DNA of 64,000 bases. It comes from Halichondria panicea (lineage: Eukaryota > Porifera > Demospongiae > Suberitida > Halichondriidae). The translations under genes were made by a program, and so were the position numbers. The notes beneath the pieces are model-generated. The model was not told where the DNA came from, ran no database searches, and was given only the letters and a program-made list of their open reading frames with translations. The stretch covers positions 575,001 through 639,000 of the forward strand of contig NC_087392.1 of NCBI RefSeq assembly GCF_963675165.1, in the 5' to 3' direction. Of this stretch, positions 49,923 to 52,787 are shown one piece after another; within the stretch, counting starts at the first letter, position 1, and each line of letters starts with the position of its first letter.

Positions 49923-52787
49923 TTAGGTTTGCTGTTCTAGTCTCATGAGTACGTGGTTTAAAGCCTCGGCAATGGACTGGCAGTCCTCTCTCGACACCAC
50001 CATTGGAGGCTTGATATTGATGACATTGTTATACCTGCTGTCGGCATGGGCAATGATCTGGTGATCAATCAACAGGCTGCAAAAATGAATATTTAATATA
50101 ATTTCAGTCCTGTTTTAATAAGAGTGTGCAACAATACTCTAGTTAAGTTTTTGATCGAAGTGTTGCACTCACTATTCCTGCACAAAGTGAGCCACATCTG
50201 GGGCTGGTTCCTTTGACTTTGGGTCTTTGACAAAGTCCACTCCGAGCAAGAGGCCACTACCCCTCACATCCCCGACACAGGTATGCTTTTCCTTGAGAGC
50301 CTCGAGACGAGCCTTCAAGTAGTCACCCATCTCCTTAGCATGACCCTGCAATCTGTCCTCCTCTACCACACTCAGGACTGCCTCTGCAGTCGCCATCGAC
50401 ACTGGGTTGCCTCCAAACTATTATGAGAGTATTTGATACATTATTGCATGCACTGAACGGTCCCCTCTGAAAGAAAGGCCTACTGCGATATTAAGGCCAG
50501 GCACACCCACAAGCCTCAAATGAACAGTTTGTGTACAAAACAACACCTTAATCACAGTTCCCCAAATGTGTGAGTTATAAAGATGAACTATTATTATAGT
50601 AGTACTCACAGTGTTGAAGTACTCCACTCCACTGGCTGCAAACTTGTCTGCAATGTCCTTGGTGGTGACTACAGCTGCTACAGGATGGCCATTGCCCATT
50701 GAATTTCCAAGGGTAACAATATCAGGACACACGCCTATAGAGTAGAGCAACAATCAATTACAATCAAAACATTTATTGGTGATATTACCGTGGCTCTCAA
50801 ATGCCCAGAAATGTTCTCCAAGCCGGCCAAACCCTGTCTGCCCCTCATCTGCTATACACAGTCCACCAACACTGTGAATGTACCTGCATGACAAATAGGA
50901 AATCAGTAACATCAGGAGCACATAGTAACATTGTAGAATACACACGGTATATACATGTAGTAGTTATGATAGGTGGCGGTATCACATACCACAAAGTCAA
51001 CGTGGAAGCAATCAGACAAATATCGCACTCAATGACATGGAACTATACTCACTTGTAGACATGCTGGAAGTAGTCATGTGGAGGCACTACCGCGCCACTG
51101 AAGATGCTCTCGTGAATGAAAGCAGACACGTCTTTGCCCTCCACTAGCTTCTTCAAGTCCTCAGCATAGAGCATGCCAGCAGTGTCTAGATCCGTGTACT
51201 GCTGTCGATAGCTGTCAGGAAGTGGAGCCTATTGGGAGAAAAGAGGTAGTGAGCAACAACACTAGAAAACTATAAACTGAACAAAAAAACGTGACTGATA
51301 AACAAAGCAAAATCAACAAAACATAATTATACATACAGTCTGACTAACCTCAAATTATAATGATGTATTGTAATGACGCACATAGAATTTCAAAAAGCAC
51401 TTTGCATGACAGATAATCTGTACAGCCGAAAATAAAAAGCTATCTGCATTCTCATTCTCAACACTAGCTCTGTTGCATCCAGTATACATACTCACAATAG
51501 ATACATCACCAGATATTAATGTGCTCTCTCTCAGCACGTGAGAGCTAAGCTGTTTCAGGGACATCAACTGGCCATGATTGGCACTACAACAAAAGAATAC
51601 ATGTGCATTATATAGGCCTCCTGGCCTAGGGTTGTGATTCTGTGTTTTCATCGGAGGGGGGGGGAGGGAGGAGAGAGGTGACAAGAACTTGTGTGTAGTG
51701 TATATTCGGCTATGTGTATTATCAAGATTTATAATGAAACTATTTTGGTATTGTCTATAACTCACAGGCCTAGCTAAGTTGTGTATGAATGTGAAGCAAT
51801 AATGAAAGGCAGAAGCCTCTGAGGTTAGAGCTTACCCTAGCAATCCCACAGTGTGTTTCCGACCTGTCACCACCTGGGCAATTTGCAGAGCTAGGTCGTT
51901 GGCTTCAGATCTATAAATGAATTGAAGGCAGAGATAACTCAATATGTCCTGTGATCCATATAATAGCTTCCTGGTACAATAAAGTAATACCATACTAATT
52001 ACATAAACATGCCAGAAGACAAACATTTGATGCATGTGAAATGGTTTCTGGTAAGACTTAGGAGTGGCTACATACATGAAGTCCACGAACCCTGAATTTG
52101 TAAAGAAACAACAGGACAATGGTTTTGGAAACTTTGAACAGAGGTGCTTGGCGTAAGTCACGATCTGATCGTTGAGAAACCTTGAGTTGGTATTGAGTAT
52201 GGCCATCTGTGCAGTGCATGCCTGGACCACCTTCTCATTGCAGTGACCAACTGTACAATAGAGGGACTCAGAACATGTACATAGACACTGCATACACTAC
52301 TCACCATGGGAAATATTACTGTCGATATCAAGATACTTCTGATCATTCTCATCCCACAAGTACTGCCCCTTTGACCGAACAATTTTCAGGCCTTGCTCCT
52401 CTGTTGACCTGTTGATACAGTGTCAATTAAATGGACTTTGCACTGTTTTATGGTATTCACTGAGGTCTAAATTCAAACTATACATCAGATTGTTCAATGA
52501 AGGTGGTTCTGGGACAAGGAATACAACTCAACCAAAAGTTGAATCACGTGTGTAAAAACTCACTTCTTTCCATTGAGCAGTTCTTCTCCTTTAATAGCCA
52601 CAGGTTTAGACACAGTATGACCATTGGAAGAAGTTTTACGCTTCTTGCTTGGTGAGGGCTCCAGTTCAGAAGAATACATGCTCCCATTGAAGACACTCAT
52701 GTTGCTGTGATTGTTTTTGGCTAGCATCAGAGAGGGGCACTCCATATCAGTCCTGTGGCCTGGTAGAGTGGGTGAAACAACAGTCAA
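49923..52787 (-). CDS. Class III aminotransferase-like protein (ETNPPL/PHYKPL group) lacking the PLP lysine
   Basis: Ten exons (52787-52564, 52408-52305, 52250-52091, 51910-51836, 51583-51496, 51228-51053, 50883-50789, 50734-50610, 50417-50173, 50076-49923) give 481 residues with consistent phases. An extended Ser-rich N-terminus with a basic [11 protein letters not shown] patch precedes the fold; Met15 (52745) is an alternative start. Family blocks are [80 protein letters not shown] and [16 protein letters not shown]. In ETNPPL/PHYKPL the PLP Schiff-base lysine lies in MGKPMGNGHP; here it reads [10 protein letters not shown] (Asn318). The aromatic that stacks on PLP (HAYHG) is also replaced, by ANHG (Asn190). 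The phosphate-binding SEANDLA and the ADE aspartate remain. I infer a pseudoenzyme derived from a phospho-lyase; the ancestral reaction is PLP-dependent elimination from phosphoethanolamine or phosphohydroxylysine. Confidence 0.88.

Follow-up and report, generated by a model that had tools for sequence, protein, structure and literature searches.

The question raised by this locus is why a gene for an apparently dead class III aminotransferase-like enzyme, with asparagine in place of the Schiff-base lysine, has remained intact. The gene, here called P1, lies in a 64,000-nucleotide stretch of Halichondria panicea DNA (the window; G000:C16:575001-639000), and the whole assembly (131 Mb, 39 contigs) was searched for its relatives.

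Gene model and pocket residues of P1

P1 was located on the minus strand at 49923-52752, where ten exons, rebuilt and joined one by one (Table 1), are separated by nine introns with GT donors and AG acceptors throughout and yield a coding sequence of 1404 bases with no internal stop. An earlier note on this DNA had described an intact ten-exon frame of 481 residues; the frame and its splice sites proved sound, but the protein counted from the first in-frame ATG has 467 residues, the longer figure adding 14 upstream codons. The donor of exon 3 is weak (gg/gttcgt), yet the junction restores NSGSEAND exactly. Scored against the Pfam Aminotran_3 model, the protein reached 238.2 bits (curated cut-off 30.5), placing it in the class III aminotransferase fold, and its best solved relative was human ethanolamine-phosphate phospho-lyase, ETNPPL (6tor; E 1.8e-121, 49% identity, 193/397 aligned residues identical). 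The earlier reading of P1 as an intact, recognisable pseudoenzyme is supported by this open frame and family match, and the KKRK patch that had been placed in an extended N-terminus was found at P1 residues 34-37, in an exon whose alignment leaves the usual N-terminal lid segment unrecognisable.

Table 1. Exons of P1, with positions in the window. Residue numbers for changes in P1 (and P2, in the text) follow ETNPPL unless given as P1 or P2 residues.
Feature	Position	Strand	Basis	Remarks
P1 exon 1 (modelled)	52564..52752	-	splice model, alignment	ATG 52745; N-terminal extension with KKRK
P1 exon 2	52305..52408	-	splice model, alignment	Asn54 to Ser (pocket-floor loop); Gly46 to Asp
P1 exon 3	52091..52250	-	splice model, alignment	cross-subunit NTNSRFL intact (ETNPPL 78-84)
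P1 exon 4	51836..51910	-	splice model, mapping	intact NSGSEAND phosphate cup, read across the junction with exon 3
P1 exon 5	51496..51583	-	splice model, references	ANHG motif; Tyr139 to Asn, codon 51577-51579
P1 exon 6	51053..51228	-	splice model, mapping	two residues fewer at ETNPPL Cys218-Gly219, near CvTA Ala231
P1 exon 7	50789..50883	-	splice model, references	DEGQTGFGR; Val248 to Gly, codon 50841-50843; Asp246 kept
P1 exon 8	50610..50734	-	splice model, references	GNSMGNGHP; Lys278 to Asn, codon 50703-50705; cross-subunit YFNT intact at 3' end (ETNPPL 306-309)
P1 exon 9	50173..50417	-	splice model	FGGNPVS and small domain
P1 exon 10	49923..50076	-	splice model, alignment	Gly403 to Ser; Lys410 to Asn; stop codon at 3' end

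Conservation was counted over 77 references (76 of them prokaryotic), made up of 6tor, the bacterial phospholyase 5g4i and the 75 loci kept out of 80 from a genome scan, these 80 being the best of 589 relatives. Two peptides served as seeds for the scan, TNSGSEAN and G[KN][PS]MGNGH, the latter permitting Asn at the lysine column. Lys278 and Tyr139 were present in 77/77 reference rows, where conservation at the seed columns is partly by selection because these peptides seeded the scan, and both are Asn in P1, each with the codon AAT, as the earlier note had read from GNSMGNGHP and ANHG. Two further losses had been overlooked, Val248 to Gly (Val in 75/77 references, Ile in 2/77) and Lys410 to Asn; within the remainder that was held to be conserved, SEANDLA, DE.QTGFGR and YFNT.GGNP stood, and DEGQ, with its Gly at position 248, was abnormal. 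At conserved columns, P1 carried eight residues seen in 0/77 references (G46D, N54S, Y139N, V248G, K278N, F366L, G403S and K410N).

P1 thus has Asn304 (P1 residue) at the place of the Schiff-base lysine, and Asn176 and Gly276 (P1 residues) where the PLP-ring sandwich would be; in class III enzymes the ring lies between a Tyr or Phe and this Val, according to the available text of two structural papers (PMC4244111, PMC3606037). With both sandwich faces lost besides the lysine, a non-covalent sensor of PLP, one of the roles suggested beforehand, becomes less likely, though the phosphate cup and Asp246 stay. Several residues on the subunit's own side of the pocket are kept (Gly112 and Ser113 of the phosphate cup, His140, Glu213, Asp246 and Gln249), so that P1's own pocket is not wholly erased, and the threonine that reaches across to the PLP phosphate of the other subunit is present as Thr335 (P1 residue).

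A lysine-bearing paralogue, P2

When the genome was searched with P1, the lysine-bearing paralogue whose existence was to be checked was found about 1.9 Mb away, on the minus strand (P2; G000:C16:2536894-2539695). P2 has ten exons with proper splice sites, an open frame of 467 residues (1404 bases), an Aminotran_3 score of 244.8 bits (cut-off 30.5) and 178/404 aligned residues identical to 6tor; as for P1, 6tor and 5g4i are its two nearest solved relatives. It carries GKPMGNGHP, AYHG and DEVQ (Lys305, Tyr166 and Val277; P2 residues), and the N-terminal lid region is retained. The cross-subunit Thr, however, is missing (Leu337; P2 residue), with NTNSRFL changed to SCDHYTN and YFNT to AMQL, and both of these segments are intact in P1. 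Reading P2's strand in three frames showed no exon that would bring back YFNT or NTNSRFL; the NTNSRFL position lies inside one open exon, and the intron beside AMQL is without FNT by eye. The suggestion that P1 might be the regulatory partner of a true paralogue was therefore half upheld, as the paralogue exists, but by its sequence P2 falls short of a complete enzyme, since the cross-subunit segments kept by P1 are lost in it, and P1 is better read, on present alignments, as a structural, co-catalytic half than as a regulator.

Seven of nine introns stand at the same alignment column and in the same phase in P1 and P2, and these shared introns indicate descent of both, as paralogues, from an ancestor that already had introns. 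The first intron is of equal phase in both and lies four columns apart, while one intron is private to each gene: that of P1 (intron 4, 51584-51835, phase 2, residue 174), absent in P2, adjoins the ANHG motif, and that of P2 lies further along. In a tree, P1 and P2 were sisters beside human ETNPPL (94/88), and in a smaller tree their relation was unresolved, each with a long-branch warning.

No third complete ETNPPL-like copy was found in the genome with the Pfam model, P1, a bacterial relative or three DNA patterns; this absence is good, not absolute, evidence because the search ran exon by exon and scored only the best candidates. The MGNGHP pattern matched at the P1 and P2 places only. The FNT.GGNP pattern matched only a gene on contig C12, missing P1 because an intron splits the motif, and GK..[MI]GNG matched at ten places besides P2, none of them among the genome's class III profile matches. 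The search also returned a weak match on C14 (E 2.2) and one more class III gene on each of C2 and C12, which by eye are OAT- and AGXT2-like and look normal in the motifs inspected. In viral contigs, none of the 26 pattern matches proved a relative by tblastn.

Sorting of the losses by subunit and a candidate composite site

Class III enzymes work as dimers, and each of the two active sites, placed where the subunits meet, is built from residues of both chains. In the available text of the structural papers, the PLP phosphate of YgjG is bound by Thr332 from the partner subunit (PMC4244111); the T. roseum (Thermomicrobium) transaminase receives Thr323 and Tyr324 from the other subunit, and in its flexible docking set one subunit provides L23, W61, Y154, I263 and K289 and the other F89 (PMC6502798); in the Chromobacterium enzyme CvTA, the neighbouring subunit provides His318 (PMC3606037), and Thr321, Tyr322 and Asn118 are on the other monomer (PMC6255834). 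P1 and P2 both retain the counterpart of Asn118.

With sides transferred by alignment from other class III structures through CvTA (numbering 4a6r), not measured in 6tor, and with both site lists of the analyst's choosing, own-side departures numbered 4/10 in P1 (Tyr139, Val248, Lys278 and Lys410) and 0/10 in P2, and cross-side departures 0/7 in P1 and 6/7 in P2 (own and cross, Fisher p 0.005), three of the seven cross-side positions (Asn78, Thr79 and Ser81) being neighbours of the documented Phe88 position. Restricting the cross side to documented residues (CvTA F88, H318, T321 and Y322) gave departures of 3/4 for P2 and 0/4 for P1 (p 0.03), and with Lys410 also left out of the own side the p was 0.1. 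The missing lid of P1 fits the sorting, because L23, in the lid region by numbering, is on the lysine side; P2 keeps that region. Two CvTA residues were rejected as mapped sites: Arg416, which gave no clean alignment with ETNPPL and for which Lys410 was used instead, and Trp60, which falls in an alignment gap. In the genome's own OAT-like gene the residue opposite Lys410 is the Arg that precedes the PP motif, so that Lys410 should be, by alignment on that motif rather than by superposition, the counterpart of YgjG Arg426 and OAT Arg413.

These p values bear on whether P1 has taken up a new and entirely separate role, such as a nuclear or metabolite-sensing one in keeping with KKRK, its match with the losses of P2 being coincidental. 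We regard this as improbable: the strictest site lists (p 0.1), the KKRK-bearing extension in place of the usual lid and the retained phosphate cup and Asp246 would all suit it, but the fuller lists give p 0.005, and a PLP sensor would be expected to retain the ring sandwich.

P2 residues seen in no reference occupied 16/115 conserved columns, with Gly46 to Asp common to P1 and P2. Eleven of the 16 (11/16) fell within segments 78-84 and 307-311 (FNT to MQL, Gly to Arg), compared with 0/8 for P1 (Fisher p 0.002). For both this test and the clustering in P2 (p 2e-9) the segments were drawn after seeing P2, and the latter figure is descriptive. When each of the 77 references was left out in turn, departures reached a maximum of 7 (median 0), so that the 16 of P2 are well outside the reference range and the eight of P1 barely above it; judged from these alignments, it is the placement of its departures that matters for P1, not their number. 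Local identity to ETNPPL was 9/11 in P1 and 2/11 in P2 at residues 76-86 and 13/15 and 7/15 at 302-316, and conversely 2/7 and 5/7 at 52-58 and 3/7 and 5/7 at 136-142; at 245-253 both had 7/9, and at 274-286 and 400-414 they differed by one residue each.

Such opposite losses also weigh on the possibility that both genes are relaxing towards loss, or that one is mis-assembled. The long branches of P1 and P2 would agree with it, but two open frames with proper splice sites, the extent of identity to ETNPPL in each, the pocket losses on opposite sides and the normal inspected motifs of the C2 and C12 class III genes make it very improbable, and a single base error cannot cause the pocket losses of P1 because they are spread over exons 2, 5, 7, 8 and 10.

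Alternatively, P1 could be a pseudoenzyme with a regulatory or scaffolding role, dimerising with itself or with P2 and contributing no catalytic residues, P2 then being an enzyme whose substrate choice has shifted through the changes in its cross-subunit segments. All 10 tested own-side positions of P2 are within the reference range, and in CvTA changes at Phe88 (first segment) and Ala231 together shifted enantioselectivity, as given in the available text of that study (PMC6255834). In P2, however, the phosphate-clamping Thr309 (T or S in 77/77 references) and Phe307 (77/77) are missing too, Thr309 holds the cofactor and not the substrate, and P1 retains exactly the segments lost in P2; we consider this alternative unlikely.

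What was found at sequence level is a lysine-less and a lysine-bearing paralogue, the latter impaired where P1 is intact, and these opposite defects in sister genes suggest that the proteins probably work only as a pair sharing one site. The account we favour is that P1 and P2 probably form an ETNPPL-like phospho-lyase, an obligate heterodimer in which one active site is composite. To that site P2 would contribute the Schiff-base lysine and the Asp, the phosphate cup and the Tyr and Val that sandwich the ring, and P1 the NTNSRFL segment and the YFNT threonine, reaching into the site of P2. A P1 homodimer would be without lysine, and a P2 homodimer would have lysine and sandwich without the threonine clamp or NTNSRFL wall, though P2 alone might still hold PLP through its own lysine; neither homodimer would have a complete site, while the heterodimer would have one complete and one dead. 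We infer the meeting of P1 and P2, the activity of the composite site and the cleavage of phosphoethanolamine or phosphohydroxylysine; a phosphorylated amine such as these is the substrate suggested by relatives. The simplest account would be that, once the gene had duplicated, either copy could shed the half supplied by the other, so that both are now needed. The dead second site still has a phosphate cup, and a regulator could bind there. On balance we lean towards describing the pair as a class III PLP enzyme split by complementary loss into an obligate heterodimer, whose dead site could be a ligand sensor.

Human ETNPPL (AGXT2L1; 6tor) and 5g4i belong to the same class III family, and in 6tor a single chain has the cross-subunit segments as well as the lysine and the sandwich, whereas P1 and P2 divide them between two. 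Serine palmitoyltransferase (LCB1/LCB2; SPTLC1/SPTLC2) is likewise a PLP-dependent heterodimer of homologous subunits, with a lysine-bearing LCB2, a lysine-less LCB1 and one active site as the working hypothesis, in the available text of PMC3794620, but it is a membrane-bound member of the alpha-oxoamine synthase family with another substrate. Trypanosomatid deoxyhypusine synthase (DHSc/DHSp) pairs an impaired with a dead paralogue to give about 3000-fold more activity, as the available part of PMC3663545 reports; that enzyme is unrelated and NAD-dependent, and the title of the paper speaks of allosteric activation. Among the papers listed in searches of the open-licence literature, none dealt with a class III split pair, an ETNPPL pseudoenzyme or ETNPPL in sponges. 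If true, the heterodimer would explain the intactness of an apparently dead enzyme and offer a clear example from nature of duplicates that complementary losses within one active site have preserved, with the split readable from sequence alone, as each gene keeps what the other lost; hidden heterodimers might then be found by seeking lysine-less and lysine-bearing paralogues whose losses sort by the subunit served.

Other features of the window

Domain matches in the window (cadherin, EXOSC1, RhoGAP, START and LisH) are animal-like. RhoGAP and START exons at 58471-58989 and 61395-61703 (plus strand) probably belong to one gene, DLC1-like by eye, which is transcribed divergently from P1. On the minus strand, an open frame at 47166-48671 with no Pfam match contains twelve in-frame repeats, nearly identical and each 17-18 residues long (PVVKWKAKMPQEENEDV), and seven cadherin stretches lie in one 1017-residue open frame (1-3051), which runs to the window's end. 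A CA dinucleotide run of 154 bases lies within long open frames at 63347-63500.
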